From: Mesodorylaimus sp. YZB2_4
Taxonomy: Eukaryota; Nematoda; Enoplea; Dorylaimida; Dorylaimidae
NCBI GenBank assembly: GCA_030248295.1
Contig: JASANH010000556.1
Coordinates: 54,129-118,128 of the forward strand
DNA length: 64,000 nucleotides
Direction: 5' to 3'
Part shown: piece after piece, positions 5,908-50,470 of the stretch
How the letters are laid out: the number at the start of each line of letters is the position of its first letter
Position numbering within the stretch: the stretch's first letter is position 1
The notes under the pieces: model-generated
What the model saw: the letters and a program-made list of their open reading frames with translations, nothing else
Told to the model about the DNA's origin: nothing
Databases searched by the model: none
Made by a program: the position numbers and the translations under genes

Positions 5908-8900
5908 TTAAAAAATATGCCTTAACCCATCCAAACACATTTTCTCTCGAACTGAAGCTAACAAAAAGCCAACTTTATTTCCGGTCAAGTCTAGTAAAAG
6001 TCCGTCACGATCTGACCAAATTCTTATGCTATAATTCGATAAACTATTGCAGCCGAAATAATCGTGTTCTCGCTTTATTTTTGGCAATACAAATATTATT
6101 TCGAACATGCTTAGTACTGACATGCCAAGGTAAAGACCGGAATCGGCCGCAATATCAGGGAAAAGATCTGTGATCTAGAAAAATATGTTGTTATCCGCGA
6201 CGTGTTCTAAACGCACACAGGGCATTGAGTTGAAGGTAGTTCGTCCAACTTATAATACTAGTTTTTTGCCAGCGGCTGGTGTCAATCTGGCCAGATCCAT
6301 GACTTATCGCTCGGTATCGTCCTGAGACGCTGGTGCTGGCACAGGATTCCCTCGGAAAGGTGCCCTACAGCCCCAGGTTGGACCCCTGGGGCTGTACAAA
6401 ATATCCTATATCCTCCGTAGCAAGCAAAGCTTCACGGCATATTCTTTGCATAAAGACGGGAAAATTGACTTTACTTACGCTGTATGCCAATGACTCCGAA
6501 TATTCTAAGTAAGTTAGGTCTTCAAAATAAACGTCAATTTGGACTAACTGGTTGATAAATAAATGTGCCATAAGCCTAATCATAAGGCATTTTTGCAGGG
6601 CATAATTATCGTAATGTATGTACCTGCCACGACGAGACACAGAGGCATTATTTGTCATTGACTGCATATGAGCGTTCTAGAACAGAGGTACAGCCAGTTC
6701 AACAAACCCAGTCTCTGGTTATCCAGTAAGACTTACTTGAAACTTGGGCCACTTTCTGGTGCTCACTGATGTTTCAAACAATTCTTGCCTGAACAGGAGA
6801 CAGAATAAGAAAAGAAATGCCAGACTCGTACGCACTTACTCGCAAGCCGGAGGACACGAGCATGCGGACCCGACTGATGAATTGGAATGGCCATAGAAAT
6901 CGTTGACACAATCACCTGGCACAGAGATGTGCTGTGTGCTCTTCTTGGTACTGGTACAAAAAACGAAGGCTTACGGCGAAGGGCATTGCAGTATCCGACT
7001 TTTGTGTTGGCTGGCAACGGGACTAGTGGATCGCCGCACTGACATCGTTCAATCACACTCTGCTGATTGCAACTTCTCAGACAGGCCTATAAAATTCAAA
7101 ATGTAACATTTTTTCTTGATATTGTGAAATGGAAGAGAATGTTTTGAGCTATTCGAGAAAGTCGAATCGATAGAACACGTGAAGAGGCTTGCTGAAGCAT
7201 GAGTGCACGTCTGAATTTTTGCTTAAGCTTTCAGCGCGGATGTAAAGTCTCTCAGGGTCGTATGCTTAATTCTGAATTACATGTGTCATAAATTGGAAGT
7301 TTTTTGGATTTTGGAGTTTCCATATTTTGGATGCACTTTGCCTTTACTGGCCAATGCCTCAGGGGGCTTTTACGAAACTTGAAGAAATGGTGTATGGGCT
7401 AAGGGAACGCATTGTAAGGCAGGTTGCTAGGTTTATACTTGGATAGGAAATGGCATTGATGGACCATCGAAAAAATAACAAACCCCCTGAAATATGCCAC
7501 GGATGGAGTTTAAAGATTCAGTATCTTATATGAAAAAATATCGACGATATCCGCCCTATTTTGCTGTGACATTATCCAAGGGAAGTCCAAAAACCATGAT
7601 TTGGTGGAAACAGAATGAAAAAACAGTTGTGAAATCCTGGTTTTCAATCCGTTTCTACAACATATTTCTTGACTCCGATGGTGAGCCACTTCTTCCATGT
7701 AAACTGTAATTTTGACAGAATCTTCAGGTCGTCTTTGACGACTGATCATTGCAATTGGTAGAGACTAGCACAGGATCGATAATGCTGCCGATTTTGGGAG
7801 CTTTACGGAAGAAGTAGACATCGCGCTGCTTATGGTGGTAGAGGGCAAAGAGGTCGGTGATGCCGAAGTTGATGTCGAGGCTGGCGTGGTAGTCGGTGCA
7901 GTTGTGCTCGAGGACGAGGTCGATGCTGTTGATGTAGTGGACGAAGTTCTTGATGTCGTCGTGCTAGTTGTCACAGGGGCAGCATTGTAATCTGCAACAA
8001 GAGGTCATCGAAGTCATCTGCTAAAGTGCTTCTGTGAAGCCAAAGATCCTTACATTCACAAATTACTGGAAAAGTATCCGTAGTGCCATAATTATCAAAG
8101 TCTACCCTCATATGTGGTGTGCCATGGACGATAGCAGCGAGATTAGGTATATCTAGCCATCCGTTCCGTTTACTGTTGTGATCGGGCAGTGTCGTGTTGC
8201 ATACGCTGCATAAAGTAGAGACAGTCACAGGGCCGCCTACGCCTTTTATGGTCTCAGTATCTAGCCAATACCAGTCAACTGAAGTTGGGCTACTGTAGCT
8301 TTTCATACCACAAAATACACCTGGAGTTCCCACAATCAGTCCAGTATACAACAAATGCGTTATGAGTCCATCGTTGTCGACCCTTGCAAGTCGGCTGTTC
8401 TGGTATCCAGCTGGTATCGATTGATCGCAACATTTCCATCCGCACACCCAAGTCATCGAGCTTAAAGTTTTCGCATAGCGAGAACTACCGTATATAGTTG
8501 ACGGGCCCATTATGCCGCATGAGTAAGGCGGTGCCCGTTTTTCTCTTTTCTTTTCTTCATATAAGGTAATGCGCTCTTTGTCTGTGCGGCTATCTGCTGG
8601 CTCTGCTGCCGACGGATTTTGCGATAATGCTTTCATTAAAGAAGATAATTCTGGAATTGTAGCCAGGGCTGATTTTTTATGCGGATTCAGGTTGCATAGT
8701 GTGACTGCCAGGAAAGGTAGGCGTTCTGACTTAAGCTGCAAAAAAACAATGTTCTAAGCAAAGCTTGGGAAGTGGCTCCAAATCCGCAGCTTCCCATTCC
8801 AGGACCCGTTTCGATGGGTGGAATAATTCTGGGTCCACTCTATTGAAAAGACTGGTGGAGCGTTTGCACCACGGCGAGAGCCCAACGCAGTCTAGAGCGT

Positions 8901-9593
8901 TTCGACATATTAGTCTGTGACTGAAGCATACCGAACTATATGTTCAGTAAGTGTCCAGGAAGGAGCAGCAGGAGCATGCAGTCCCAGTGTGTTGTATCCT
9001 GATGTAATGGGCGTGGATATTCATCTGCGGCTCAATGCACTGGTTCAGGAAGCTGGTCAGCCCCTCCTAACAGTATTCGAGGCATCATCTCACCCTCTAA
9101 GCATCATTCAGCTGGGAACACACCTAAGCTCACCCATTCTCGTTTGCCATACCCATACTAGATATTCTGCTGTCTCCCCACTGGAGGCAACTCAAACTGA
9201 TTGCAATTTTCATCCTACAAGTATCTGTGTGGACTTACGCACCACGCCATACCAGGGCAGCCAACTAAATCTTTCAACCCAGTTCATGGCTGAAGCATCA
9301 CCCTGACGGGTGACGCTCCCAGTTCTAGCTCCGTGAGGAGTATCGATAGCTAGTCGAGCCTCTACATACTGTATTTGACTTTTAGAAAATCTACCGTAAA
9401 TCATACTAACCGAGATTGCGACCGTTCGATCATACTGAAGATACTTGACCACGCACACGGCAGTCAATCCGACTAACAGTACCGAGGAGACTACTGTAAT
9501 AACTGACCAACATATATTACTCAGAATATTTGGCCCAGTTATTGCAAGGTTCAATGAAGTAATAGTAGTGGCTTGGGGCTCCATCCCAGCCAT
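5908..9593 (-). CDS. DEG/ENaC-like channel with one C-type-lectin-like domain and a short Ser/Thr stalk (copy B, possibly decayed)
   Basis: Exons read with matching phases: 9593-9411 (TM1, SLNLAITG then a hydrophobic helix); 8735-8054 (LPFLAVTLCNLNPHKKSAL, basic site KREKR, then a CTLD ending VICE); 7991-7807 (about 61 residues, mostly Ser/Thr). After a gap come 7086-6975 (ACLRSC, RCQCGDPLVPLP), 6915-6840 (DCVNDFYG, CSCPPAC), 6788-6737 (TSVSTRKWP), about 6547-6479 (VYFEDLTY) and 6174-5908 (TM2, GLYLGMSVLSMFE, plus a long C-tail). The 112-, 76- and 52-bp exons have exactly the lengths of their counterparts in copy A. Between 7807 and 7086 the three or four palm/finger exons expected from copy A are not recognisable. 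Only a weak echo, AAAGTGCATCCAAAATATGG near 7310-7335 on the minus strand, resembles copy A's DPSYGNC exon, with that Cys replaced. Either the exons diverged beyond my reading or this is a pseudogene. A role as an extracellularly gated Na+ channel is known for the family only. Confidence 0.7.
9240..9372. repeat. Dispersed repeat R1 (partial copy), overlapping the TM1 intron of copy B
   Basis: It shares 'cagggcagcc', 'catggctgaa', the hairpin CATCACCCTGACGGGTGACG and 'tcgagcctctac' with 26761-26945 and 50275-50470. It sits in the first intron of the lectin-channel gene, next to the TM1 exon donor at 9411. A weaker match at about 8815-8885 to the left end of R1 suggests an older, rearranged element. 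Confidence 0.6.
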
Positions 9594-11465: not shown

Positions 11466-14400
11466 TCAATTTTTTCGTCGTAAGCATTCTCCAACATGAA
11501 CTAATTCAAAAAAGCTCATCACTGATACACCCAACAGAAGTCCAGCATACGCTGCAATGTCCGACAATAAGTCCAGCATCTGAGTGAAAAATAATTTATC
11601 AAAACAATGGTAAGTAAAGCACAAAAAACTTACCGCGTAGCTTATTTTTTCTGAGTATTCGAAATATATTAAGTCGTAAAAATACAGATTTATTTTCGCC
11701 AGTTGATTTCTAAAGAAGTCAGCATGGCATACGCGGTGCGAGAAGGGGAGGAAACACAAAGACCAACTTTTTGCCAAGTTGTGTCACTGATGCATTCGTA
11801 CTCAGTCGCATGAACTCGTCCTAAAAGCAGCATACATAACCTTACGCTAACGAATAAAAGTTAAAAACACCAGGGTGGGAACTCTAATGATTTTTGGCGA
11901 AAAATACTGCAAAAATTCATGCATACAATGTCTCAATTCGGCTGTTAGCTGTCCACTACAAAATGCAGCCACCCTACCTGAAAGGCGGGCCATTTTGTAG
12001 TACTCACTGACACTTCGAACATGTCTTCCCTAAGAAGTCAAGGAACATGCATTTCAGCACACTCTCAAGTCGAGGCTAATTACTGGCAAGCTCGCGGACA
12101 TTGGCATGATGAATCGGAAGATTTTCCAGTCGTGCCATAAAAATCATTGACGCAATCGCCTGAAAAACAACAATGTCTACTTCCTCTTGGACAGCACAAA
12201 ATGTACGAACGTCTCGTCATATCACAAAACGCGACAGTCGATTTGGGTGGCAGTGGAACTCTTGGATCTCCGCATTTGCAACGCTGGATCACCTGCTTTT
12301 GATAACAGCTTCTTAGACAAGCCTAAAAACAAGTTTTTGCCGTTTGTGATTGGGAAGTAAATACAGCGTCAAACTTGTACCTCAGCAGAATATGATGTAT
12401 TGTAGTTGAACGTGTTGACTTCATTTTTGGAACTAACGCATGGTGTTTGAGTGGAATCCAAGGCAGCTAGGTGAATCTGAAAAAGGAAATATTTGATTTT
12501 CAATCATATTAGAGACTACAAAAAATTTTGCTGTTTCGAGCCTGCTAAATTTTCGTTTTCTCACGATTACCAAATGTACGAGTATTCCGGGCTAGTGAAG
12601 ATGAGAAAAGCAAATTGTCTGCACCAGACTTACGTGTTGTAAGGTGACCCCGACTTGGTATCCACTGGGGACGTTAAAGCCAAAATTATCAGGAAAAACA
12701 GGATCGTTCTGCTTGTGCACGATCACTCGCAGACCAGCCAGTTGAGTATTGTCCAAATACTCGTCTTGGCCCGAAGAGTACATGACAGAGAGTCCTGAAG
12801 CGTATGAACGTCTTGGACTCCCACCCTAGAGTACAGCCAAGCTTGCCACCTACCAGATGACATTCCAGTGGTCTGCGAAGTCAAGTATCTCCCGTCAAAA
12901 TTGAAAGTATAGCAGTTTCCATAACTCGGATCCACTTTCAGCTGGAAGTCACTGTGAACAGAACAGCTTTTATTGACCTTGAATCACGGACCCCTATGAC
13001 TTACTCTAACGAGCAGCGAACACCGTCGTACACGCATCGCATGAGCAACTCGGATAAACTATAGCCAGCCTGCTGGGCCACGTCAGGTGGAAAGCTAGCA
13101 ATAAGATACGGGATTATGTCCTCCATTGTCGCTGCTGCTGCCGTGGGACTGTTCTTGACCTGCAGTGACATCACAATGTTGGGTAACGCAAGAAATCAAA
13201 AAGTAAAATACAATGTGGTTGTAAGACTACCTCAGCCAGAGCCTTCTGTATTTCCTCTACTGTTGCTTTGAAGGTCTCCTTGGAAAAACGTGTACTGGCT
13301 GTCTGAGGATCTGCAGTTGCTGCAAGCCCTTTAGTGGACCTGTTTGACGAGTGGGATTGGGCGGTCGCAATAAAAGTAAAATCCTGTGGGCTTGCCCCGT
13401 CTGTGACTGATCGTACAGTCGAAGATGTCCCACCTATTTTTTCAGCAGCATCGTTCTTACTGGTTGTTGTCGAACTGCCAGAGTTTGCTTGTTTCTGTGC
13501 GGCAACAATTGGTTCTGACTGTACTGTGGGTGCGGCGGTTTTTGAGTTGCTTAGACCCATTGAGGGCATGTCACTTGGCCCAGATGTCCTCTGATCGTTG
13601 GCCTGCTGCGAAAGCCCGGCTGCTAGAGTGTTTGTTTCTGGAGGGGCGGTTAAAGCACTTTGACTGGACAAGATCATACTTTCCGTGACATCTGTTCTTA
13701 AAGGAGGGCTTCCAGCAGTTACCAATGATCTTCCTACTGGGGCGTTTGCTGAAAATTGCTCACTATCGATGGTAATTGTTGTTGCTTCAGGACTGTCCCG
13801 TGAATTTGACGTCATAGTCATCGAAGTTGGCATAGACTGTAAATCTGACTTTTGCATGCCAGGTGGTGTTGTGATAGTTCTGGCTATCGTCCCAGCATCC
13901 TCTCCTGCTGAAGGATATTCCATATTTGCTAGTGATCTGGTATTGGGAAATAAATTAGGTTTATCAGTTGTTACTTCCGAGGTGCCAGAAAGATTGTTAT
14001 AAGAAGGATTAACAGAATATTGATTCGGGCTCCGGCTACCGCCAGTTCCATCAGATGTGATCCCAGTTTTGGCTTCAAAAGATGCTCCAGAATCAACCGC
14101 CCATGTTGATTCAAGAGGCAGTGCTGCTGTAAATTGTTCTCCACCTCCCCGCGATTTCATACTGTCACCACCTGATAAAACTGAATCGGAGTTAATCTCG
14201 CGATCAGTGCTTTGTGGCACAAAATCGGGTGTTACTGGGTCAGAAAATATCAGAGATCCAGATGTATGAGCACTATTTCCTTCTCCTCCTGCTCCAAGTT
14301 TAGTACTGACAAGACCATTGATGGTTCCGGTTGTGAAGTCAGCTCTGTTTTGATGTGCATTTTGTGATATGACTGGTGTGGTGCTCTCACTTGCAGGTGA

Positions 14401-17400
14401 TGATGCCGGCTCTAAATTTAAGGCCAACTGAATGGCGTCAGAACCTGCTTCAGTGCTTATCCCACTTTCTGCAGCTGCACTAGCGAATGTAGGAACGTTC
14501 AACGAGCTCGAGGTCGAAAATGCTCTGTTTCCCATGGTTGATGTGGTGCTTTCATTCGATTGTGACAAGGGAGCCACGTTTGAGTTGTTAGCTTGGATAA
14601 GAGTGGCTACTATACTGAAGCTTCCTAGTGATGCTAACGTGGGAAATCGTATGTCGGTGACCGCTACGGGCCTATCAGTTGTTGGGTCCGACTGTGGATC
14701 AAACAAAGTTTGACCAAAAGCTTCTGGATTTGCGGATGGAGGATTGGTTGCTTGTGGTTTTGAAGTCGTTTGAGGAACAGATACAAAATTGAACTTTGTG
14801 CTTGGGAAGTTGAAATTGATCTTATCTGTTGTGATTATATCAGTGGGTGGGGTCGTCGAATTGGCATGTGCTGCTGAGAGTCCTTTGGTCGTGGTGCTGT
14901 TGTTGTTAAGTTCAGCTGCTACCACGCCAGCCGCATCTGTACTTGAGGAGGTCCAGGCTGGGCTGGCTAGACTGGTGCCAGACTGCGGTGCTACACTAGG
15001 TTGTGAATTGGAGGAACCCCAAAAGGGAGGTGGTAAAAAGACCATATTACTGCTGGCAGTGAAAGCACTCGGAGGTGGAACTGTAGGTTCTAGGGTTGAA
15101 ACAATCATTGGCGCTGCTGACATTCCTAAAAGCAGAGTAAGGGGCCTTGCGGCTGTAGTTTTTTGCGTGTCTGATGAGCCTGACATGCTAGTTTGTATCA
15201 AAGAAACTTTTGATGGTGCAACGGTGGTCGCTATGGCCGTAACTGTTGGCAAAGATGCCGTCGTCATTAACACAAGCCCTGGGGAAAAAAATTCTGTCGT
15301 TTTCTCGCTGGCTTTATTTTGAGTCGAGAAAGTAGTTTCTGAATTAGCTGTTGAAACTGTTTTATCTGAACTGCGTGTACTGCTAGTAGCAGCGGATGGC
15401 AGCGCACTTGGTAAGGAGCCGACCACGCTACTGGAACCTGACATAGCTGGCGGGTCACTCATTGTAGTGGCTTCAGTGGGAAGTAGAGAGCTGCTAATGG
15501 CCAAGTTAGGAGTGTATGCATCAGCATTTGATGAAGGGATCGATTCACCTGTGGGTTGGATTGGTGGAAGCATTGGCAAAGTTGAAAGCGATGATGTGTC
15601 CAGTGGTAGGAGAGTCGTTGGAGCGGTGGTGATGACACTGCCACTGCCACTTGGGAGAGATAAAGATGTAATGGAAGGGGATAAGACAAATAAGGATGCA
15701 ACCGTGGAGGTGTGTAAGCCTTGGGGCAACATGACACTGCTACCTGCACTAGAGGACGTTGTCCAACCTGGACCCGCAAAGCCACCGCTAGGCAGGAAAA
15801 AAGGTGTCAAGAAAGGATTGGCAGAACCCAGAGAAGTAGGGGCAGCACTAGATGGCAGATTAGACTGTTGCGTTGACGCAATAACTAGACCTAGGGTAGT
15901 TATTCTTTCAGATGAAGTAGGACCAATGCTGGCAATGGAAGGGTTGCTCAGTCCACTCGAATAGGATGTTGTTTCTGCAAACGATGCCTTGGTGGTTGCC
16001 TTTGTGGACATCAGTGGATTAGCATTCGAGGATGTCACTGTGGATGAACCAGCAAGAGCGGGTACCGTCGATGCGCTGGTTATGCTCGCGGCTTTTGTAG
16101 AGGTGGCAGCAGAGTGCGCTGTTGTCGACGACTGACTGAAACTGCTCTTGCTGCTTGTTGGTACAACTGAAGAAACTGGTCCTAATATCGTAGGGCTGCT
16201 ATTAAGCCCAGCTGTCGTGACAGACATGCTCGACTTCGCTGTGGAAAATGTGCTGCCGGCAGAAGTGAGTATGCCCAGTGGTGTCGTTGATGAGAAAAAC
16301 GGGTTAACGCTGGTGGACTGCGCTGGGCTCGATGGAGAGCTGGCCAGCGCACTAAAAGTCGAAGCGCTGGCAGATGAAGAGCTGCTGACGACGATTTGTG
16401 CTGACGTAGCTGTGCTGCTGCTGCCCAGCAGACTCGCTGTTGTTGGGGCACTCTGAGCTGGGGATGAAGTCGATAAGGCGGTGCTACTCGATGGTGAGAG
16501 AGATGAACCCAGCACTGTGGTTGAAATTAAAGGAGGTTTGCTCCTGGTCAATAATATTAATGACGTTGAAAAGGCTGATGTGATCAGTGGCGGTGGAGTC
16601 GTTGGAGCAATGGTGCTGAGGCTGCCACTGGAAAAAGTTGGAGATGCAGTAGAGGGGGATAAGACAGAGGAAGATGAGCTAGTCGTGGGCATTGCTGAGG
16701 AGAATGTAGTGCTCTCTGCAGTGCTTGATGGCAGCATGGGGCTTCTGGCTGTCATAGCAGTTGTTGATTTCGAGAAAGGCAGAGTGCTAGTCAGCGAGAT
16801 AGAGGCTGTGATGGTGCTGGCTGCGGCCATTGACGACTGTGTGGTTGTTTTTAGAATGTTGGTACTGCTGATTACGGTGGTGGACGGTTCTCGAGTGCTA
16901 GTTGATGAAGCACTCGAAGAAACGGGTGATGTGTTGCTGATACTAGTAATTGATAACGAGTTACTTCCAGAAGGGGTCGATGTCGCAAAGGCGCTGCCAT
17001 CAGTTGATGATGCCTTTGCTTGCGACGCAGTGCTCGCTGCATATGATGTACCACTGGTGGAATCCATACTTGCAGTTGCAGTTAAAGTTGATGCTTTGGT
17101 GGAGCTTGAAGAATCTGCTGTGCTGACTGTGCTGCTTATTGCTGCCGAGGATGTGCTGCTGCTGATGGTTGAAGCCGTCGTGCTATCTAGGCTCGTAACT
17201 GAGATGCTGCTTGGGAAATAAGTCGATGAAGAAGTACTTATATCTCCCAAAGATGTAGACGCAGAAACTATGCTGCTCGTGATAGGTATAAAGGTTGAGG
17301 CAAAATTTGGTGAGCTAGACACTGATGAACTTGTGGTAAGTGACGTGGTAGCTAATGTACTCGATACGGAGGTGGATGTTGATGAGGACGTAGAGGATGT

Positions 17401-20400
17401 CGTGGAAGTTGTACTCGATGATGAACTACCACATGGCGACGATGGAGTCACATAGGGGGCACAAGTTGATGACTGACTTGAGTTATAGACTGAAAAATGA
17501 AGGCATTCAGTAAGATTTTGAGCAGCAAAGCTACCTATTTTAAATCGCAACTTACACTCGCAAATAATTCCGAATCTATCAAAAACTGGATCATAATTAT
17601 CGAAAAATGTCTTTCCCCCAGCTTCAGTCCAAACCACAGCACCGCCGCCATGGGTTTCGATCCATCCTTGATTCGTTCCGCATTCAAAATCAGAGCGATA
17701 GCTCTTACAGGTGCTGCATAATAATGATACATTGATTGGGCATGGGGATGGCGTGTTCACGTCGTCATACCAATGATATTCAGCGATAGGATACCCAACG
17801 CCTTTCAGTCCAGTGTAGGCCAGGCTGGCTAGACTGGATATGACATTCGCGCTTTTAAGGTACGTGATAAGGGGATCGTTGTCAAGACGCGCCAAACGAG
17901 CTTTCAGGTAACCGTGATAAGGCGCCATTGCGTTGCAGCAACTGAATCCTTGTGTCCATAATGAATTAACCGTTGGATATCGAACGTACAAGGAGGCGCC
18001 ATAAGTGGCTGACACAGGGCTGGAGAAGTTGCACAGTGTCGATGGTGTCATGGTTACTCTTTGGGTGCTGGACGTAGTGATTGCTGCCGCAGTGGAGGAA
18101 GAAGTTGGTGAAGCTGGTGACGTTTGAGCTAACAAAAGAAGTCACTGTAGCTAAGGCAATACCATGCTCACATTGGCGTACTTGTGCTTGACGCGGTAGA
18201 CTTCGTACTGGTGCTGGCGGTATTATAGACTGAAACGAACAGAAAAATAAACGATTATCTGTCGTTATCTCGATATCGCTTGACAAAGTTTGGGACTTCT
18301 CACTTATTTGACTCATCAGCGCTTGGTTGGCGTTCTTCGGGTCCACCCAGACTGTATGGTTAATTCTGCTTCAATAGGGGCTCTTAGAACTAACCAGTGT
18401 TCCTCAGGGAGTGAAGAAAACAAAAAGCATAAACGCGTAAACAGGATTTCTAAACGCACAGAGGAGGGCTAGAAGAATGGGCAAGGTTTCGCTAGATACT
18501 GTAACCAGCGCATCCAGGCGGCGGGAGATAGTCGAGACCGAAGTTTCTAAGCAAAAACCCCCCCCGGGGGGGGGGCACCCCCCCCCCACCCCCCCCTCTC
18601 AAAAAACCACCGGAGGAGGGGCCCCCCCCCCCGGCGGGGGGTCTTCCCGACCGCCAGGCGTGCTGGTCACAATACTTACATTCACAAATGACAGCTTGAT
18701 AATCTTTAGAAGAGATCGGGTCGAAGTTGTCAAAAACCACCTTTTTGTTAGCTGCATTGAAGAAAGCAGTCGCAGCGGCGCCAGGCAACTCAAGCCATCC
18801 AGTACCACCATTGTAATCTGGGTTCTGGGTGGCGCAGTTTTTGCAGAGTGTAGTTACGTTTACTCCTGTGAATGTAATTTGTGATGCCATACCATCGTAC
18901 CAATTCCAAACGCAGGGTGCGCCAAATGAACATCTCAGCCCTACCCAGCCGCCAGGGTCACGTAGAACGTTTTTTGACTCCAGGCATTGGATTTGTGTAT
19001 CACCGCCGTCGATGATGGCCAGACGGCTGTTCTTGTATCCTGTGCTCGATAGATAAGCAGCACAGCACTGGAAAGCAGCGGGCCAAGATACAGAGGTTGA
19101 CGGAAAAAGGAAATATTCCGACTTGCCGCAAATGGCGCTATACGGCTTCGTGTAATTACAACCAGGAGGAATCTGCCTTTTCCTTCGTCGCATTTCTGTT
19201 TCTTTGCTTGGATAGTCGTCTGCGTATGATTCTATTTCCGCTCGATGCTGTCTTTTGGCCTCATCTGGTTCCCGCTGTTCAGCTTCAAATATTGCTCCAG
19301 ATGCAGCATAGCTTTGCTCTGGATCTTTTGCTTCCTGATCGATCGGTTTTTTTGCCCTGTTGGCGATCACTTGTGACGATGTGCCATTTTTTATTTGTCC
19401 AAGCAGTTGAGCCAGTTCAGGAATGTTGGACAAGGCAGACTTTTTGTATGGATTAAGATTGCAGAAGGTGACCGCCGGAAATGGCAAGCGTTTTGTTTTC
19501 ATCTGAAATATCGCACGATTGATCAGAGCAAGGCCTAATGCATATTTTGAACGCGCATGTACACAAATATGCGACAGAATGACTAATTTGAAGTGGGCTT
19601 CAACGTCTTCTCGGTTCCAAAAGATAGAAGAAACGTGCGCAAGGGCGCCAGAAAGACGGTACAAAAGAGACGGACACAAAAGAAATGAATACGAGTTGAC
19701 CTTGAAAAGGTCTGTGAATAAATTACAGAAGCATTGAAGCTTAGAGTACGCAGCTGACTACAGTAGCCTGTATAAGTATTTTACTTCTATTGCACTGTTC
19801 GAAAGTGAGATAGAAGGCGCCCTCAGAACTGTTATTCATTCAGTATACTGTGCTGTAAAGGCTAAAAGTACGACTAATCGAAGATTCGTCCTGCTCACAC
19901 GCTTGAGCAGAAGCAACATAGCATCCATTGCATCACGAGGAAAATTTAATGCGTGGGATAATCACAGAGAAATAGATATTCAAAAATTCTTGAGGTTATA
20001 ACGCTCCAACGTTGATGAGCTGGTGCTGGTGCGCTGTTTTTCTGACCCTGTAGGAGTGCCACTACGGCTTTCGGGCTTGGGCTAGTGCAAAGCGGAATTT
20101 GTAGCGTACTGAGCCTACTGTAAGCGCAGTTCATGAGAGCTAGAGAAATCCCTATACCGCGGTTGTCTTTGAGAATGTACGCGAGGAATGTGAGCTTGCC
20201 TTTGAGTTGCTATACGTTCTTATTATCGTATCTATGCATTCGTACCCACGTTTTTCAAGAGGTGAGAATGGCCGGCCCTACTGGGGCTGTCTAGTACCTT
20301 CTTCTATGGAGCTAGGTTCTCTGAATGCCTCGTTTTTCGAAGCTCAGTACTAGTTAGGCTATATGGAAGGGGGAGAGCATCTTGGGATAATTCATCAGTG

Positions 20401-21570
20401 CAAGCAAGAGTACTGCGCGAAAAGCATAAAAGCTCCATCCTTGCATGCATCACTCGACACCTTCCTAGCATTGCAATCTATTTGCATCATATAGTGCATT
20501 TTATTCCAGATTAAAAATTTATCGAGAGGAGACCGCTATAAAAACGTATGTTCTGAAATAAATCTCAGAGGAGGCGGGGCTTAGTTATTGTGTCGATCCT
20601 TTTCCAAAAAGGCTTTTTCGATATTCTTATTTTCACGGCGATCCTGCAATGACATCAATCCCATAAAAACCTCAAGTTTTGGCCCAATCAAGGTTTGACA
20701 TATCCTCACAACGTGCAGTATATCCTTCAATAATTTCACTTTCATAGACTTTGAGTGCATTTGTCTATCGAATAAACAATGAGTGGATGAATTTTTAAAT
20801 ACAGTTTAAAATCCCTGACCATCCGGAATATCCAAGCTTATATTTGGCGGCAATTCAACTAAGGCCCAGTGCTTTCAGTATTTGAGGGTATCAATCGAGG
20901 CCTGGTGGCTTCTTTGAGGCGACACGCTCAGCAATTAATCCTGAGAATATCGCATCTTTTGTATACAGAGCAGATCAATATTATCTAAGCAGCCAGCATT
21001 TTAAGAAAAACTAGATTTCGTTGCTCCATGCAGGGAAAGAAATACTTTAAAAATACACCAGATTCTACTTTAAAATCAGCACCATTCATTATTTCTTCCC
21101 CTTGCAAGAAGTTGTTCACCAACGCCCGGCAGTTCAACAGCCAGTTTGCCCTCTGTTTCTAAGGCGCTATCTGCAAATGATGGATTGCGAGAATATAAAA
21201 TTATGCCCCCCTCAATCAGTTATATCGTACCAGTTTTTTTCCCACGTGTGCTCTTCATCCTCAACATCCTTTTCCTTCATTCTAGCACCGCTTCTGCCCG
21301 TATCACTTTTTCTGTGCACAGACCGCAAGAAAGCTGGTACAATGGACTCACCTGGATCATGACAAGTGTTTCATAACGGGTATATTTCATAATCAGCATG
21401 GTCACGACTAGAGCAAATGCCGTGGTCGCCAAGATGGTCACTGCCCACCAGGAAAGCTTACTTCCTGGTGTTTTGCCTGTTATGGCCAAATTCAGAGGAG
21501 TTACAGTGGTGGCTGGTATCTCCCGCAACATCTTGCCCCCAACTTGAGCCGTCTTCATGGAAGCAAACAT
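11466..21570 (-). CDS. Giant DEG/ENaC-like channel with furin site, two C-type-lectin-like domains and a mucin-like stalk (copy A)
   Basis: Fourteen exons, thirteen phase-consistent: 21570-21352 (TM1); 19502-18680 (LPFPAVTFCNLNPYKKSAL, furin-like RRRKRQ, CTLD1 with WVGL, WNWYDG and VICE); 18229-18182 (Ser/Thr linker); 18128-17556 (CTLD2, YTGL, HWYDD, IICE); 17489-13231 (about 1,419 residues, Ser/Thr/Pro/Ala-rich); 13159-13005 (GYSLSELLMRCVYDGVRC); 12951-12854 (DPSYGNCYTFNFDG); 12794-12634 (GLRVIVHKQNDPVFPDNFG); 12476-12381; 12322-12211 (ACLRSCYQKQ, CKCGDPRVPLP); 12159-12084 (DCVNDFYG, CQCPRAC; the preceding intron is only 51 bp); 12029-11978 (SVSTTKWPAF); about 11712-11634 (FRNQLAKINLYFYDL); 11579-11466 (TM2, LLLGVSVMSFFEL, stop). 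The start of the penultimate exon is unresolved. About 2,285 residues in all; ordinary family members have 500-900. The lectin and mucin modules sit between the post-TM1 strand and the palm, where the finger domain normally lies. The cytoplasmic His-Gly gating motif is absent (TVTPLNLAITG). A plasma-membrane channel with a large glycosylated ectodomain is inferred. ATG at 21570 is the first in frame after a stop; an upstream exon is possible. Confidence 0.85.
13231..17489 (-). other. Mucin-like Ser/Thr-rich exon of copy A
   Basis: One 4,259-bp exon with no stop. It enters at phase 1 (after ICE) and ends at phase 0 (ALAE). The first third is runs of Ser/Thr with almost no charge. The last third is more mixed, with scattered Asp, Asn, Glu and Lys, and ends in a predicted amphipathic helix ETFKATVEEIQKALAE that leads into the channel palm. 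Dense O-glycosylation is expected from composition. The valine-, leucine- and alanine-rich open frames on the plus strand here (for example 14789-15322 and 16481-17221) are shadows of the Ser/Thr codons. Confidence 0.85.
18540..18656. other. Homopolymer block of C and G runs inside intron 2 of copy A
   Basis: Long alternating runs of C and G (8-12 bases each) interrupt otherwise ordinary intron sequence between CTLD1 (ends 18680) and the linker exon (starts 18229). This composition is unlike anything nearby. It could be a sequencing or gap-filling artefact or a true G-quadruplex-prone tract. The poly-Gly/Pro open frames across it are not genes. Confidence 0.7.
19520..21351. other. Long first intron of copy A
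   Basis: About 1.85 kb between the TM1 exon (ends 21352) and the CTLD1 exon (starts 19502). No further exon or recognisable repeat was seen. It is the longest intron in the gene. Confidence 0.5.
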
Positions 21571-22184: not shown

Positions 22185-23666
22185 TTAAACAGCCCTCATT
22201 TGTCTCCTTTCTGATGAATTTCCCGCAGGTTTCGGTTTACAAGCCGTTTTGCAAGCGTGCATGGAATAGATAAAAAAATTTAAAGAATATTGTGTATAAA
22301 ATAATAAATAAACAGCCAGTTGCATTAACTTTTCATTTTCATAATTCTCATCATTCTGGCTCGTAGTCGATGTTCGTGTCATTTGCCACAGTCGATGCAC
22401 ATAATTTGGCAAATTTAAGATAAGATAAATCAAAGATTTAGTGATGAGCAATGACGAGACTAATGTGGCTCGTGATCTACGCCCACGTTTTTTTGTGATG
22501 GCATCCATAGCATTGGATAATAGCAATTGAGCCATTGCGTTCCTTCGTCGAGTAGCAGAATCTTTTTGAGAACATTGTTCGTGATCTCGAAGACTTCCAC
22601 TGGCCAAACTGCCCGTGGTAGAATTCACCCTCAGTGTTGATTTATGCTTCAGCGTCGCTGCAGCCATGGCTACGGCCAGAGCTGATGTGGAACTAGCGAC
22701 AACATTATCACTGAATTTTCTAGCCACCAAATTTTGACGCTTAGTCAATGAACGAAGTAAGAAGCAGCCGATTGTTATGTTCAAGGCTAAGGTGACCAGA
22801 AGAGGGATCGAGAAACTGACAACACTGTCCAATATTGTCAAGTTATTGTAATGTTCTTCGTTTTCTGGACTAAAACTGCATTCTAAACGAATTTCTTGTA
22901 CGTGACTGAAAATTAGTGTTGAATCAAGGTCATTAAGCGATCGATTAGAAACTATGGCAAACTGATAAAATACATCCCAATCAGATCCATTATCGTAATG
23001 ATCATCGATGCACAATCGATTTGATCGATTACAAGAGGCTTGATCACTGGATGAAATATCATTATCCAATTCTCCTGGAACAGGCACACTTCTCGCGATA
23101 ATCAAAGTCCAGATATTAACCAAACATCCGAAACAGGCAATAGCGATAATTCTTTTCATGACCAACCCACGTGAACAATATCGGCGAGCTCGGTACGGGT
23201 CTACAATGGCCAGTGTCATTTCTGCTGTAAGTGCCATAATGTACCAACCCGACAAGAGGCAACTGGTATTTGATAAGAATATGGACAGTGGACACACCAC
23301 ACTGGAGTCTTGCCAATTGACACCCACACTTTTTAACCAAATCAATGATAAGCACGAAACAAATGTGAAATCAGTCAGTGATAAGGCGGCTAAATATTGT
23401 GAGGATGGAATTCTTTTCAATCGACGAGTTACCGAGAATAGAATAAAACTGATAGCATTACCAATTATGCCCACAATGATCAATGTGGCCACATAATAGG
23501 AACCAAGTTTCACATAAAGACCAATATTACTATTCCCTGGATTTTCGTTCAACAAATCGACAAAATTTGAATTTGAATTATTTGGTAATGGTAACCTCGT
23601 CGATGTCATACTAGTGGCTAATATATTATGTTGCGTATTCGCAAAGAATATCGAGTCTTCGAACAC
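22185..23666 (-). CDS. Rhodopsin-family (class A) GPCR, peptide-receptor type
   Basis: Single-exon 493-residue protein with seven hydrophobic segments. The N-terminus is Asn/Ser-rich (possible N-glycosylation). TM1 carries GN (GIIGNAISF), TM2 has LAALSLTDF, and a Cys sits before TM3 (VVCPLSIF). The end of TM3 reads TAEMTLAIVDPYRARRYC, so the usual (D/E)RY is E-M-T and the key Arg is missing, although the following AIVDPYRARR is typical. A long, Cys-containing second extracellular loop follows. The third intracellular loop is very long, basic and Ser/Ala-rich (about residues 310-400). TM6 has LNLPNYV. TM7 has YSLNFFIYS, the NFFxY form common in invertebrate peptide receptors in place of NPxxY. 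A C-terminal Cys pair could be palmitoylated. Closest class by eye is the FMRFamide/TRH-like receptors; the ligand is unknown. The first ATG (23666) and another at about 23609 are both possible. Confidence 0.85.
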   Translation of the reverse strand: MFEDSIFFANTQHNILATSMTSTRLPLPNNSNSNFVDLLNENPGNSNIGLYVKLGSYYVATLIIVGIIGNAISFILFSVTRRLKRIPSSQYLAALSLTDFTFVSCLSLIWLKSVGVNWQDSSVVCPLSIFLSNTSCLLSGWYIMALTAEMTLAIVDPYRARRYCSRGLVMKRIIAIACFGCLVNIWTLIIARSVPVPGELDNDISSSDQASCNRSNRLCIDDHYDNGSDWDVFYQFAIVSNRSLNDLDSTLIFSHVQEIRLECSFSPENEEHYNNLTILDSVVSFSIPLLVTLALNITIGCFLLRSLTKRQNLVARKFSDNVVASSTSALAVAMAAATLKHKSTLRVNSTTGSLASGSLRDHEQCSQKDSATRRRNAMAQLLLSNAMDAITKKRGRRSRATLVSSLLITKSLIYLILNLPNYVHRLWQMTRTSTTSQNDENYENEKLMQLAVYLLFYTQYSLNFFIYSMHACKTACKPKPAGNSSERRQMRAV

Positions 23667-24882
23667 GACTCAAAGCATTCAGAGTGCTTGTGCCAAAGAG
23701 CCCCAATCGCTCGTCCAATGACATTAGCTAATGATCAATCCGCTCGGCCGTTCCAGGTCACACAGAGATGCCAATTCATTTGCACATCTGCATTAGAAAA
23801 AATACAATTATCATGGCATAAAGAAAAAAAAACGAGCACCAGGGATGCCTAGTGATCGAGTTTGGCGGGTTCTCGTGTGGTAAGTGCTGACTGGGGCGAA
23901 AACTCGTGCCGACTACTCGAGGGAGAACCAGAAAAGGATCTTTGAACGAAATAGGGAAATGTCAATCAGTAACCAGGGTCAATGCTAAACTCGACCCCTT
24001 TAAGCTCATCTAGTGGGACGAATAAAAGTGGCAGTCAGGCAATCCACAGCAAACCTAGCTCGCCTTCGATTGGGTGTGATTAAAAAACGCCCGTCCCACA
24101 GCGACTTCATCCTGAACGCCTTTCCTCGTTTCTGGTCAACAGGGGTGTCGTGGGCGGGGGGGATTTAAAAAGAGAACGGTAGATTTTTCTTTCGCTTCTT
24201 TCAAAGCTAATACGAAAATCGAGGAGCTACGATCAAGGAGCGCGTTGTGTGCTCATATAAAAGTAGGGGCAGTCCATTCTTTTCCACTTTGCCGACCCGT
24301 CATTCCCATTTTCGACCTACGTGACGCGAACGTTGGAGGCATCGATTTTGAAAAGCATTTTTGGCAAAGTGATAGTTGAGTTGAGAGGGGGCGAGCGGTG
24401 TGTCGGTTCGATACGAGTCCAGCCATGAAGTTCTGGGCATTACTTGCTCGTTTTCCTTCATTCGACCATATTTCACTCAACTCAACTAAGGGGTGCCCGA
24501 AAAACAAGAGCCGGGAGCAGTTGGTTGAGAAGGAACAGCTGTCTGGCTTGATAATTTCCTATGAACCAAACTTGTTGGTTGGTAAGAAAAGAAACGAAAC
24601 TACGTCAATTATTTTAACTTAATTTCATATAAATCAGCCCACTCATCGCTTCGATAATTCCAAACACCATCTCCCTTAACGAGTTCGCACTGCCTTTGCG
24701 CCTATCCTCACTTACGTCATTCACATTTTAAAACACTCCAAGGCATCGGACTATTTTCTTTCGGAAACTATCAAAATTTTTTCTAAGGCGCTAACAATAA
24801 AACTAAAAGTGAGAGAAACGAAAACCATCTTTATTCTTCCCGACTAACTCGAAATAATTTTTGACGACTTTAAAGAAAAAGA
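23667..24882. other. Intergenic, presumed GPCR upstream region
   Basis: No gene recognised. Small open frames on both strands around 24.25-24.62 kb show no family signature and no consistent splice structure. Confidence 0.4.
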
Positions 24883-26401: not shown

Positions 26402-29400
26402 CTAAAATATATTCAAGATGTAAGAACACCTGTAATAGGAATACAAAAATTATTCAATCAGCGATGAGAATACCTGCCTTGCTTGAAGGGACCTGAAATT
26501 ATTTCTTGTGAGCTAGGACGTTTCGTTGCGGCACGAGCCGTGACCAGGGATTAAGCAGTTTGGTGGATGGAATTGGAGTCACGAGGAAATACACTTATTC
26601 AGTTCAAGATGGGACATCGCTGCTGATAACGTCTTCAGCAGTAGGATGCATAGACGGCACATGATGGCACTGAGCTGCACTGCTCTGATCGCGAGCAATA
26701 CCACCCACAATAAGCATGCAACTGTGGCATTCATTTCTACTCTACCTAGTCTGTCGACAGCGTTATACGACTGGGTCCGCATTACTGGAGGGAGTGAACA
26801 GTGGACCACAAATAAAAACCCAGGGCAGCCAGCCAAGTCTTCTGACCTATTTCATGGCTGAAACATCACCTTGACAGGTGACGTCCGTAGCTGCCGGCTC
26901 CATGCAGAGTACGATTGCCAGTCTAGCCTCTACAACAGTACGAATGTGCTTGTCTTTCAAGAATATACTTCACCTTAGCGTAGTCGCGTCATGTGGCACA
27001 TTTCTGTTAGCCTCCTTCCCTACAACCGAGCAATCCTCTTTTGTACTTATACTGTGTGACTTTGTTCCCAGGTCATTTCTGGTCAATTTCTGTTAGCTGT
27101 GCACTTTCGCGGTCGTTTCCGCATACAAAATTTGCAGCACTCCCTATAATTCTATCTTTATTATTTTATAATACAAACATAAGTACTATAAATTAGTCTC
27201 CATATGCATATTTTGTTATGCCCTTTGTGTGCCTTGCTGCATTGTACATCAATTATTTTATCTGCCTGATCTTTGTCACTTAAGTTAGTTTTTCTGCAGT
27301 GCAAGCGAAGTATGAGTAAGTTTTGAGCAGGCAGGACAGGTAGACGCTTTTAGCGACTTAAAGTTATTGAAATGCGAATGCAACTAGTAATTAGAGCGTG
27401 AAAAAGAAGCACTGTCTTAACTTTTGGCTAAAAAACCCCACTTTGCGCACATCTAGACTTCTGTACCAGATCATCATTGCTACTGAATAAGAGCGGGACA
27501 CTGCAGCATGAAAGAAAAAATCAGTGACAGTCAGACTAGTTTTGTAGAACTATATGGCTAGCATTTGCCAACAGCAGACAGGATCGAACAAAAATACCTT
27601 TTGTAGAAGATCTGGGCGAAAAATATGGCTAGTTTAGCAAAGTAAGTATTCAACATTAAAAGCTACGCTGTAAAAAACTGTCAAGTTTTTGCAACGTCAG
27701 AGACATCAATACATCAGCAGGCAGGTCTTGCCACCAAGACTCACTTGCCCTGCCATGTACGACTATGGTAACCCACCCCCCCCCCCCCGGGCTCAAAACT
27801 CCCATATGTTCAGAGGCCCCACACCCACAACTTCATGCCATGGTAGAGGATCTTTAGACGTCCTACAGTACAATTGCACGAGTGAACCGTCATTAGGCCT
27901 ATCGGAACTTTTGCCTTTGCCTACTTGACTTCTTCTTTAGACGATTAGGCCTTGCAAAGGGATGATCGGCAGCCGACTTGTGACGTGTCTATGTTTGCTA
28001 TCGACTGACGATGAGATGCACTCGTGGACACAGCTGTACAAACAGCTAAAATTAGCAGAAATTTCTAGCATCGGGATAGAGGCACGTGAGAAAAACCTGA
28101 CCCTTTCACGATTCGTTACAGCTCATGAAAACAAAATTATTGACTTTCCGCTTCGATACTTGGAAAAATCCAGCTGATTAGAGAAACAGACCACCCTGGA
28201 TCTCTAAATACGCCAGCATTTCCTCGTGACGGCAATTTTAGGTTCATCTAAACCTCGAGTCCCTGCCTCACTTGCTTAGTTATTGCCACCTACTGGCGAG
28301 TGTATGACTCGAGAGTAGAGCTTGTATAAATGTGCCCTTTTACCCTCAAGGACCTAATATGGTAGAATATGATGACGACGACGATATTTCTGAAAATGCG
28401 TATGTGTGTAGCCATCAGGGCGTGTAGAATTGTAGCAGAATATTGCAATAAATGCACAGCGGCACTATGACGTCCCAGTTTCCAGTGACGTTAGCAGCCA
28501 TGAGCTCACGCCATGTGGTTACGCACCCTACAGTAGATCTCTGATGTGATGAATGCAATGTCATGCAGCACCCTTCTAAATCTCCTCTGACTCCTTGCTC
28601 ATGCTCTGCGTCAAAATTAGTTACGGTTCCTTCAAAAAAATCTAGAATTTTTTGTAACAACCCTCCCTAACTGCACTTTTCTTGCTGTTGCACTTATTTT
28701 TTTAAAAATGAATTAAAATGTCTTTCAGCGAGACTACATGTCAGCCTGCTCTCCTACGCATTAACTGTTCGAAATTCCAGCAGTTCGTGGACATGTAAGA
28801 GTCCTCAGGCGAACAATAAATCGCGTCATGCTCGCTTGAGCTCCGTTTTTTCCATCCACAATAATGTATTGCGCTGATAGGGGGTGGTATTGTAGTGGAA
28901 AAGGCGGATGCGTTCGTCAATAGGCGCGACTTTAATCATTGAACCGATGCGCGCGTGGACAGGAGATAGAAGGGATGGCAAGGGTGGTTTGTCCGTTCGA
29001 ATATTCCCAATAACATCAATGCACACCTACTGTCAACCCATATTTCACGCTATGCGCTTTTGCTAGTTCGCCGTTCTACTTTTTCTATTCACCATATTTC
29101 ACACTATTCAAATGCCATTTACCAACAAAATCGCCTAAAACTAGGGACACAATCGAATTCTCTATTCAGAAACTGGTCGCTTGGAATCTTCAAAAACTGT
29201 ATCCTATATACTTCGCGTGAGTGAGCAGGAAAGCTACGGCATGGGTGGCAAGTACGTGTCCATTAAGCATATACGCGGTTAGTTCTAAAGAAAATTTGAG
29301 TGAAGGACAAGCGAGAAAGTGAGAACTAGTTTTGAGCTTGAACAAAGAAAAATAAAACATAAAAACTCATGAAGTCCAGAGCGTAAACGACACGGAGTCT

Positions 29401-32259: not shown

Positions 32260-34855
32260 AGTTTAAATTTACTTCGAGAAATTTATTCGATTAAACAACA
32301 GTAATACAAAAGCAACTTTTAATCGAATACGTTAAAATTCGATGACAACTGGACCGCTTTTCTTCGCCGAGTAAGAATCAAAATAAAGGCGGTTAAAGGA
32401 AAACGAGAAGTGGAAAGAAAGAGAATCACCACAATAAATATATCTATGTAGGTACGTTTGGTGTGGCGGGTTCGCCGTCGGACTGACAGGCCGTCGCACT
32501 ATTTTTCGGTGTTCAAGGACAGACAGCGTGCGAGCAGACACCTCGACGGACGGATGCAAGTGCCAGCCGAATCGACGAGAAAATGCTAGAATGTTCGAAC
32601 AACTGGTGGGTGACGACCGAATTGGTGCATTCTTCCCGCACAAGAGCAGACTATGACAGTGTGAAGTGCGCTGAAATGGTCCAGTAGGAGGCGGGGCTAA
32701 CATTTGGTGTGCGCAAAGAGCGCAGCATAGTTAAAAAAAGCAAACAAGTAAAAGTCGAAGCCTCGGCCCACTGTTAGTTTTTTTGATCGTGATTTTTGTG
32801 CATGTCTTCACGTCTGATCACCAGCGTCGTTGCAATCATCTGTTCTCATAATCTTGAAATTTGCAGCTGGTATCGGAATCACTGTGGATTCCTCTGATTG
32901 AAACCGACATTTGGTCGCATTAACTGGCCGTCTTTCGAGCCATGCGCACGGAATCCTGCTGTGCCATAGCTGATAGCTACTTCGATCGACATGGCTTTTA
33001 TTAACCGCGCGTTGTCGCTTACGCAGCATTGAACTTTTCGCGCTCCAACTACTCTTACTAATTATATCTTTTTCCTACAATTTAATAATGCAACCCGTTG
33101 GGAAACGTGACGGCAGAGAAAAAAGCTCCGTCAAACAGTTTTTCTGTCCCTGCCAGACTTCTAAGTAGCGAATTAAATGCTTTTCTTCCATAATTCCCTT
33201 CATTTTCTGTGTTCCTCGTTGAGGATTGTTTTGCTCAACAAGTATGAACAGCACTACTCTACGCAGGTTTTGATTGGTTTCAGATAGCATCACAATGAAC
33301 TTTGATCGCTAGTGGGACACATGTATGTAAGATTGGGGTATAATTCGTGTTTTTAAGCTTCTAATAAAAATAATACGTTCGACTGAGGCATTAGGGTTAT
33401 TTATGGATTTAGAAACGTGTAAATGACATAAATTTCTCGTTGTAATAGGCCTCGTTTCCGCAGTTTCGATTTTTTGTGACTTCATTTTGTCAATTGCAGT
33501 TGCCTGCGCACGCATGTTGGCATAATGGCACCGCTCCATGCATAGTTCTGTAGGTTTCACTAAGAGTTGAATTACTTTGGCAATCAGAGTAGCTACTGTA
33601 AATAGTGTTAGTATCCTTGTTGTTTTTGAAATTTCTAGAGTATTATTGGTCATAAGCATGTTGGAGGGTCTTTTTACATGGTTTTATTCGATTTGTATTT
33701 CCTTCACGTAATCGCTAGAAAGGGAGGCCAAACACAAACTAATTATGCGTATGCCTATTATGCCACTAACTGCTGACATTTTTAATATGGTAGGAGCATC
33801 TATTTAGTTTGCTTTCTGTTAAAAGCAAATGTCCAGGCGTCTAGTGAATTGTTCTTCACATCAACTCTCCAACTAATTTGTTATGTTGGCTCCTTTTCTA
33901 ATTGAACCTTCAGATTCAACACCCGGCTTTTCCAACGCTTATATGCATCTCGCTTTACCTTTTTAAACAAACTTGACCGCCCTTATGTCTCTGTTGATTA
34001 TTTCTTAATAATAGGCTTCTTAACCCAAATCCATGTCGAAACAGGAAGTTGTTAGTTATATCCTTTGTTTTGTGCCCTATCTCACGTCGTACTCTCATTT
34101 TCTAAGAAAAACAGAAGGCCTTTTTCTACAGATAAAATTATGTGTCCGCTTTTTAGATCCGCGTTAGCTATGCTTCAGAGACACGTCTGCCTTCGCGACT
34201 TTCCATTATCTTTGTAAAAATATCTTCATCTCGTGTGAATATTCTTTCATGTACTTACACCTTGGGATGCTTTTCATTGTCTGAAGGGGTTGCGGTTTAA
34301 TAACTTACATGTAAGGGAAGTCTAGAATCCTCGTTCCCAGGCTTACTCTTAAAATCTACTGGCTTTTGTAGCGGCCTACAGGAATTTGGATCCGTTTTTA
34401 GTGATAGTCCAGGTTTTAAAACTATTTCTTTATCTAAGCTGTCATAACATGCTTCCCTACCTACGTCAGCTTGTCCCTAGCAATTTGATTATTCACTCTT
34501 CAGTAGCTGCTTATTTTCTCAGTTCTGATTTTGTGTTTCTTAGGTTACAAGAAAACATAGCAAAGATATATTCTGTCGCTCTTTACCTGCACGCTTTTTG
34601 CCCTTACTTGTATGGACAAGCGCTCTTTGACCTTTGAACGGAGAATTTTTCAAAAACAAGTCTCTGTCCATATCGCAATTACTGATGGAATTCTTTCCGC
34701 GGGTCGATAAATTGTGTTCGTTAACTAGTGCTCACGACGAGAAGTGATAATTATCGCGAATTGTGGCAGGTGGTTGTTGTTTCAGGGAACCAAGACGTAC
34801 GATAGATGTATGCGCCAAAGAACTACTAGTCATTGTCAAATTACATTCAGCAAGT
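32260..34855. other. Intergenic between divergently transcribed DnaJ and FRS2-like genes
   Basis: Contains the presumed promoters of both neighbours. No exon or repeat was recognised. The region at 33.7-34.7 kb is T-rich on the plus strand and could be an intron or 5' untranslated region of the FRS2-like gene. Confidence 0.4.
32588..32602. promoter_or_regulatory. Possible heat-shock-element half (GAAtgTTCgaAC)
   Basis: AGAATGTTCGAACA lies about 330 bp upstream of the DnaJ start codon. It contains GAAnnTTC, two correctly spaced HSF pentamers; a third unit is mis-spaced. A TTCTTCCC run follows at about 32632. Heat-shock control of this class is known, but the site is short and could be chance. 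Confidence 0.3.
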
Positions 34856-50274: not shown

Positions 50275-50470
50275 GTAATACGACTGGGTCCGTATTACTG
50301 GAGGGAGTGACCGGTGGAGCTTTTGCACCACGCCAAAAACCCAGGGCAGCCTACCAAGTCTTCCGACCTAGTACATGGCTGAAACGTCACCCTGACGGGT
50401 GACGCTCCCAGCTGCCGGCTCCGTGCAGAGTATCGATTGCCAGTCGAGCCTCTACAGAGTGTATCCGACT
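50275..50470. repeat. Dispersed repeat R1, copy 3
   Basis: The best-preserved copy: 'aatacgactgggtccgtattactggagggagtgacc' start, the hairpin CGTCACCCTGACGGGTGACG (8-bp arms, 4-base loop) and 'cgattgccagtcgagcctctac' end. Confidence 0.75.

Follow-up and report, generated by a model that had tools for sequence, protein, structure and literature searches.

Can a subunit of a DEG/ENaC ion channel carry its own extracellular tether? This question is raised by a locus in a stretch of DNA from the nematode Mesodorylaimus sp. YZB2_4 (contig JASANH010000556.1, positions 54,129 to 118,128 of the forward strand), all 64,000 nt of which were analysed and are referred to here as the window. An original prediction, made from the DNA letters alone, had described a DEG/ENaC-type channel with two lectin-like domains and a mucin stalk in place of its finger. 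We refer to this gene as gene A (minus strand, 21570-11466). A tandem paralogue, gene B, lies on the same strand at 9593-5908. Gene B, a hidden 66-nt intron in gene A, a conserved convertase-type site and a missing His-Gly motif, all described below, are additions to the original prediction.

Gene A encodes a DEG/ENaC core with a large insert

The gene A model consists of 15 exons, joined by 14 GT-AG introns into one open frame of 2,304 residues. Nine of the 14 introns are 51-66 nt long, the short introns have TTTTCAG-like acceptors, and all 14 junctions are phase-compatible, an agreement that is partly due to our choice of splice sites. The encoded order is the first transmembrane segment (TM1), the beta-1 strand, lectin-like domains 1 and 2, the Ser/Thr exon, the palm, the cysteine-rich region and the second transmembrane segment (TM2). 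The first palm strand is thus separated from the remaining palm by two homologous domains of about 165 residues each and a 1,420-residue Ser/Thr-rich exon. The original prediction had counted 14 exons. Their phase-matched joining was confirmed, but the giant exon (open frame 18141-13171) hides the 66-nt intron and can be ruled out as a single exon. This intron (17555-17490) is in frame, being a multiple of three, follows domain 2 directly and has the same junction as the intron after domain 1 (ICE-T/GTAAGT ... CAG/TCTATAA). All three lectin-like domains of the two genes (A1, A2 and B) end in ICE with a phase-1 donor GTAAG, followed by an acceptor and FYN or YYN. Domain 2 occupies a separate exon flanked by phase-1 introns, which would fit a duplicated or shuffled module.

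A Pfam search with the spliced protein revealed the ASC family in two stretches (E 4.3e-74, 250.6 bits, cutoff 23.6), the version searched having 2,326 residues with the 66-nt intron still in place. This match, together with the order of the segments and the phase-compatible junctions, agrees with the prediction of a single DEG/ENaC gene. The C-terminal 344 residues resemble alpha-ENaC (6wth_A, E 6.9e-37), and the N-terminal 117 residues, which matched ENaC and ASIC chains (ENaC gamma, E 2e-6), were assigned to Pfam ASC on their own with an E of 1.7e-14. A 19-residue hydropathy of at least 1.6 was reached only within residues 43-61 and 2267-2297, giving two transmembrane segments with a large loop between them. 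Judged by eye in the alignment with ENaC alpha, 13 of the 13 C-terminal extracellular cysteines have a counterpart, one of them four columns out of register. Exon 2 carries the beta-1 cysteine in FCNLN, and the NPYKKS strand is present; this strand and the short introns with their acceptors are suggestive of a nematode gene. The selectivity filter G-x-S in TM2 reads GVS in gene A and GMS in gene B; excerpts of a review give the DEG/ENaC filter motif as G/S-x-S (PMC8536179). Read from the sequence, the ASC core of gene A is complete, its interruption falling after beta-1 and ahead of the stretch that leads to the palm cysteine pair.

That the channel and the lectin-like parts belong to a single gene is well supported at the level of DNA, because beta-1 and domain 1 sit in one exon and are joined without a splice, and likewise in gene B. 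The predicted extracellular insertion between beta-1 and the palm is supported, and the occurrence of the shared exon in both genes rules out separate genes nested in an intron.

No His-Gly dipeptide was found in residues 1-80 of gene A or gene B, the start codons of which are inferred; if present, it should fall in exon 1. The region before TM1 reads ATTVTPLNLAITG in gene A and ATTITSLNLAITG in gene B. According to excerpts of the same review, most if not all DEG/ENaC members have His-Gly before TM1 (PMC8536179). Given the strong profile match and the room that the review leaves for exceptions, the core is still placed in DEG/ENaC. Without His-Gly, gating may be altered, or the subunit may depend on partners. 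The peptide LNLAITG ahead of TM1 is common to both genes (21570-21352 and 9593-9411).

The inserted domains are likely C-type-lectin-like

The three domains are 35-38% identical in pairs, with invariant cysteines and W, D and G positions. Synonymous sites among them are saturated, and no value was obtained for the ratio of nonsynonymous to synonymous substitution rates. Domain 1 shows the motif order SW..A...C - LA.I - WVGL - W.W.DG - ICE. In a six-frame scan of the window domain 1 was the sole match to this pattern, domains 2 and B being unmatched; since the pattern was written after seeing domain 1, its recovery in 0 of 200,000 shuffles is no independent test. None of the three domains matched a Pfam family, Lectin_C included, up to E 10, with filters that drop most matches above 0.1, and the scan of the spliced protein, run up to E 1, revealed no Lectin_C in its domains. 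Thus the Pfam search of the joined protein, which had been suggested as a check, recovered ASC but not Lectin_C. A signature pattern for C-type-lectin-like domains (CTLDs), which we take to be PROSITE-type, matched neither domain 1 nor domain 2. When PDB sequences were searched with a profile of the three domains, seven were retrieved, antibody chains or unrelated proteins with E of at least 0.14, and no lectin.

A profile of the three domains was also compared with an alignment of nine vertebrate C-type lectin domains and scored 28.4, with a probability of 31%; none of 400 column shuffles reached this score, the best being 20.4. Two divergent CTLDs used as positive controls scored 47.0 and 100.6 (both are from LY75, which is also the source of two of the nine references), and the negative control, a segment of the palm, scored 22.3 in a 12-column alignment. 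Taken alone, domain 1 scored 27.4, while domains 2 and B scored 13.1 and 12.4, inside the shuffle range. AlphaFold predictions for three sequences were of low confidence. The two models of the domains had mean predicted local distance difference test (pLDDT) scores of 41.7 and 49.3; the order of their secondary structures presumably fits that of CTLDs. Foldseek searches with both models against 350,542 PDB chains placed C-type lectins at ranks 1-3 for the first (E 0.48-1.4, in the best 50 of 74 matches at E up to 10) and at ranks 1-2 for the second (E 0.035-0.14, in the best 50 of 636 matches). Among the matches listed, none reached E 0.001 for either model, and most of those for the second were unrelated folds, such as GRK2, PTB and longin domains. 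The TM-scores of the top C-type lectins were low (0.27-0.36 by query length).

The motif order, the weak profile match and the fold ranking suggest that the domains are likely C-type-lectin-like, as had been predicted for the two domains of gene A, although Pfam Lectin_C is silent. The sugar- and calcium-binding motifs EPN/EPS, QPD/QPN and WND are absent from all three domains. Sugar binding is therefore not to be claimed, and the predicted glycan-binding function, for which Lectin_C is silent as well, is not supported.

The Ser/Thr-rich stalk

Exon 5 contains 23.7% Ser, 15.6% Thr (39.3% together) and 8.0% Pro, compared with 17.9% Ser plus Thr in the rest of the protein. Counted per 100 residues, Ser plus Thr make up 48-62% of the first 500 residues or so (62% of the first 100) and 26-39% thereafter, with 26-34% between residues 1555 and 1954 and 15% in the last 20 residues. 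The strongly mucin-like part is thus about the first 500 residues only: the predicted mucin stalk of 1,400 residues stands in its length and overall composition, but not in its mucin character throughout. The stalk has only two cysteines, both close to its start, and its O-glycosylation is expected from its composition. The exon is open for 1,419 codons, compared with a maximum of 316 in 300 order-2 Markov resamplings of the same DNA, and uses all six Ser and all four Thr codons. None of 15 Tandem Repeats Finder rows falls in 13231-17489. These results rule out exon 5 as an intron or a DNA repeat, in agreement with its original reading as coding sequence.

A convertase-type site precedes the first domain

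The 2,304-residue protein of gene A contains the motif R-x-[RK]-R a single time, as do the two blocks of gene B taken together. In both genes five residues separate the predicted cut from the initial cysteine of the first domain (RRRKR/QIPPGC and REKR/APPYSC), and no R-x-[RK]-R was found ahead of domain 2. Calculated from the composition outside the stalk, the chance of this motif is about 1.2e-4 at a given position and 5e-4 at any of four positions.

The palm strand in exon 2 reads LPFPAVTFCNLNPYKKSAL and is followed by a helix-like stretch, an acidic linker, RRRKR and domain 1. The insert comes after the alpha-1-like stretch (SALSNIPELAQLLGQI), its end preceding a helix-like stretch that runs up to CVYDGVRC, and as read from the sequence it seems to lie at or near the position of the GRIP domain of ENaC. 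In the original prediction the stalk took the place of the finger. Because the alpha-1-like and pre-palm helix-like stretches look retained, the finger is probably interrupted by the insert rather than replaced.

Gene B repeats the channel-lectin layout

Gene B has the same channel-lectin layout with one lectin-like domain. Where genes A and B align, from beta-1 through the last residues of the domain, they are 33% identical, so that their common channel-lectin arrangement is an old one that has been retained. However, a tblastn search (E up to 1) with the part of gene A that begins at exon 6 did not detect the expected counterparts of palm exons 6-9 in gene B. Seven open stretches of at least 40 residues on the minus strand overlap 7087-7806; six of them had no Pfam match, and the seventh is the gene B Ser/Thr frame. 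The lack of a palm in these 720 nt could be due to deletion, decay or assembly loss, and gene B may be either a pseudogene or a truncated subunit. The first-intron region of gene B contains a dispersed repeat (about 9229-9380) that is 82% identical to 50314-50470, part of it being 78% identical to 26820-26934.

A proposed self-tethered channel and its alternatives

Tentatively, and with somewhat less than even confidence, we propose that the gene A subunit is a channel with its own extracellular arm, cut by a convertase and self-tethered. A Golgi proprotein convertase would cut after RRRKR and leave the subunit in two chains, which would be held together by the palm sheet and by a disulfide linking the FCNLN cysteine of beta-1 to the GNCYTF cysteine of the palm, a pairing that we assume to be as in ASIC and ENaC. 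The chains should stay linked because both cysteines are present. The cut, playing the part of GRIP-domain cleavage in ENaC, would convert a closed loop into a free arm, with domain 1 at the new N-terminal tip, followed by domain 2 and an extended stalk whose root lies in the finger, next to the thumb. Bound by its tip to something in the matrix, cuticle or mucus, the arm would transmit pull or release to the finger and thumb region, the movement of which would gate the pore. Glycosylated mucins extend 0.2-0.25 nm per residue, and the stalk could reach about 300 nm if fully glycosylated. That all these features coincide, namely a convertase-freed arm of up to a few hundred nm with two lectin-like domains, rooted at the GRIP position of a subunit in which the His-Gly gate motif is replaced, is possible but on balance somewhat unlikely.

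Several observations weigh against this proposal. Cleavage at RRRKR is a motif-based prediction, and the domains lack the classical sugar and calcium motifs. The missing His-Gly in both genes could mean that conduction is unusual or absent. If the palm of gene B is missing, the gene family may be decaying or partly non-channel, and because the Ser/Thr exon of gene B encodes only 62 residues, a long tether is not common to both genes. Four donors in gene A are weak (GTACGC, GTAGTC, GTTCGT and GTTGGT), one of which, GTTCGT of exon 10, is backed by GTAAGC at the counterpart in gene B. The 450-nt intron between exons 2 and 3 holds a 93-nt G/C palindrome (18553-18645; arms of 34 nt, 79% complementary), a possible sign of misassembly in the DNA that separates domains 1 and 2. 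Finally, no relative was confirmed among 123, 25 and 122 pattern matches in viral contigs (twice) and genome contigs, which says little, since these are non-animal collections.

The position of the insert near the GRIP domain and its convertase-type site would also suit a ligand- or protease-regulated channel, in which the domains bind a soluble ligand or fold onto the finger, the stalk is a spacer or shield, and the cut at RRRKR relieves inhibition without any force. The Ser/Thr exon of gene B, too short for a long tether, agrees with such regulation. However, one R-x-[RK]-R is present here, where ENaC alpha and gamma have two protease sites flanking an inhibitory tract (excerpts of PMC6197857), and a stalk of 1,420 residues would be costly as a spacer; we regard this explanation as rather unlikely. 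Gene A could instead encode a non-conducting or regulatory adhesion subunit, with an ASC core that anchors and assembles and an arm that binds the matrix or a neighbouring cell. Gene B without its palm would fit this explanation, but the G-V-S and G-M-S filters kept in TM2 and the conserved thumb and palm core of gene A make it unlikely.

An annotation or assembly artefact, in which separate genes or pieces of paralogues were joined or a gene is decaying, is suggested by the G/C palindrome, the incomplete gene B and the weak donors. Nevertheless, the channel-lectin join needs no splice, since two diverged genes each encode beta-1 and the first domain in a single exon, and the 14 junctions keep phase, if partly by site choice. 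Moreover, a domain is expected before exon 3 (FYN...), because this exon, which lies beyond the palindrome, has the phase and the first residues that follow lectin-like exons elsewhere. An artefact is accordingly a very improbable explanation. As to the domains themselves, an unrelated cysteine-rich fold is suggested by the silence of Pfam, the mean pLDDT of 42 and 49, the profile probability of 31% with domains 2 and B alone inside the shuffle range, the 22.3 reached by the palm segment on 12 columns, and the lack of a Foldseek match at E 0.001 among the matches listed. The score of 28.4, above all 400 shuffles, the lectins at the top of both Foldseek runs and the motif order of domain 1 argue against such a fold, which we consider improbable.

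A channel with a built-in arm would differ from known systems mainly in its combination of parts. Like gene A, membrane mucins and mucin-stalked C-type lectins have a lectin-like head on a Ser/Thr-rich stalk; they end in a single membrane anchor, whereas the arm of gene A is inserted in an ion channel. We know of no lectin-like or mucin domain in the degenerins MEC-4 and MEC-10 of Caenorhabditis elegans. These DEG/ENaC proteins resemble the proposed gene A subunit in having a proposed matrix tether; for MEC-4, excerpts of PMC10148893 treat matrix tethering as a proposed model and note evidence against a microtubule link. Gating through matrix tethers has been proposed for DEG/ENaC members, and knowledge of these tethers is called scarce in the abstract of PMC7958617. 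C. elegans EGAS-1 to -4 combine EGF with ASC (excerpts of PMC10424705) and thereby provide a nematode precedent for DEG/ENaC proteins with added extracellular modules, although these are EGF modules rather than lectin-like domains and mucin. ENaC alpha and gamma share with gene A an ASC core with corresponding cysteines, and an insert with a convertase-type site between beta-1/alpha-1 and the later palm; as in these subunits, cleavage is plausible for gene A. However, the GRIP domain is small, consists of beta-strands, and has a disulfide as well as two protease sites (excerpts of PMC6197857), whereas gene A has an insert of about 1,800 residues, two lectin-like domains, one site and no His-Gly. 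Consistent with the original prediction, titles and abstract openings of the papers found in searches of open-access literature describe no ASC, ENaC or degenerin protein joined to a lectin or mucin; an unpublished annotation of such an architecture may exist.

If the proposal is true, the tether, which genetics has assigned to separate matrix proteins, becomes part of the channel, and a lectin-tipped stalk built into the part that gates the pore would open the question of tethers to direct tests within one protein. Gene A would also widen what the finger/GRIP site accepts and question how essential His-Gly is.

Feature coordinates and neighbouring genes

Table 1. Positions of gene A and gene B features in the window
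Feature	Position	Strand	Remark
Gene A
Exon 1: TM1, preceded by an N-terminus lacking His-Gly; start Met inferred	21352-21570	-	hydropathy peak at residues 43-61
Exon 2: beta-1 strand LPFPAVTFCNLNPYKKS, alpha-1-like stretch, acidic linker, RRRKR site, lectin-like domain 1	18680-19502	-	single open exon
RRRKR convertase-type site	19176-19190	-	sole R-x-[RK]-R of the 2304-residue protein; REKR at the equivalent place in gene B
Lectin-like domain 1 as aligned	18675-19169	-	final 5 nt beyond the donor; spliced domain ends ICE
Exon 3: short Ser/Thr linker, begins FYN	18182-18229	-	similar to the start of the gene B Ser/Thr exon (YYN)
Exon 4: Ser/Thr linker and lectin-like domain 2	17556-18128	-	phase 1 at both ends
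Intron, 66 nt, within the giant exon of the original prediction	17490-17555	-	
Exon 5: 1420-residue Ser/Thr/Pro-rich stalk	13231-17489	-	39% Ser plus Thr
Exon 6: helix-like stretch ahead of palm, CVYDGVRC	13005-13159	-	
Exon 7: palm, DPSYGNCYTF	12854-12951	-	
Exon 8: palm, QDEYL...GFNVPSGYQ	12634-12794	-	
Exon 9: palm/thumb	12381-12476	-	
Exon 10: cysteine-rich part of thumb, ACLRSC...	12211-12322	-	
Exon 11: thumb, ...CQCPRAC	12084-12159	-	10/11 junction agrees with gene B
Exon 12	11978-12029	-	
Exon 13	11768-11820	-	
Exon 14: pre-TM2 palm strand	11634-11709	-	
Exon 15: TM2, G-V-S filter, stop	11466-11579	-	
Gene B
Inferred start, TM1, no His-Gly	9411-9593	-	
Beta-1 strand, REKR site, one lectin-like domain	8054-8735	-	one open exon
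Short Ser/Thr exon, 62 residues	7807-7991	-	68% Ser plus Thr
Stretch expected to hold counterparts of palm exons 6-9	7087-7806	-	none found
Thumb-to-TM2 exons, G-M-S filter	5908-7086	-	

Directly upstream of gene A, an open frame of 494 residues at 22188-23669 on the minus strand encodes a rhodopsin-type G-protein-coupled receptor (Pfam 7tm_1, E 6e-18). Two long open reading frames rich in Gly, Lys and Pro, of 677 and 556 residues and partly tandem-repetitive, lie on the plus strand at 51818-53848 and 57629-59296; neither has a Pfam match at E 0.01. A Neurochondrin-like stretch was found at 26401-25757 on the minus strand (E 6e-13), and an open reading frame with an IRS-type PTB domain at 34751-36685 on the plus strand (E 1e-15). 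DnaJ and DnaJ_C domains occupy two open stretches at 32262-30854 on the minus strand, which probably represent one DnaJ chaperone gene.

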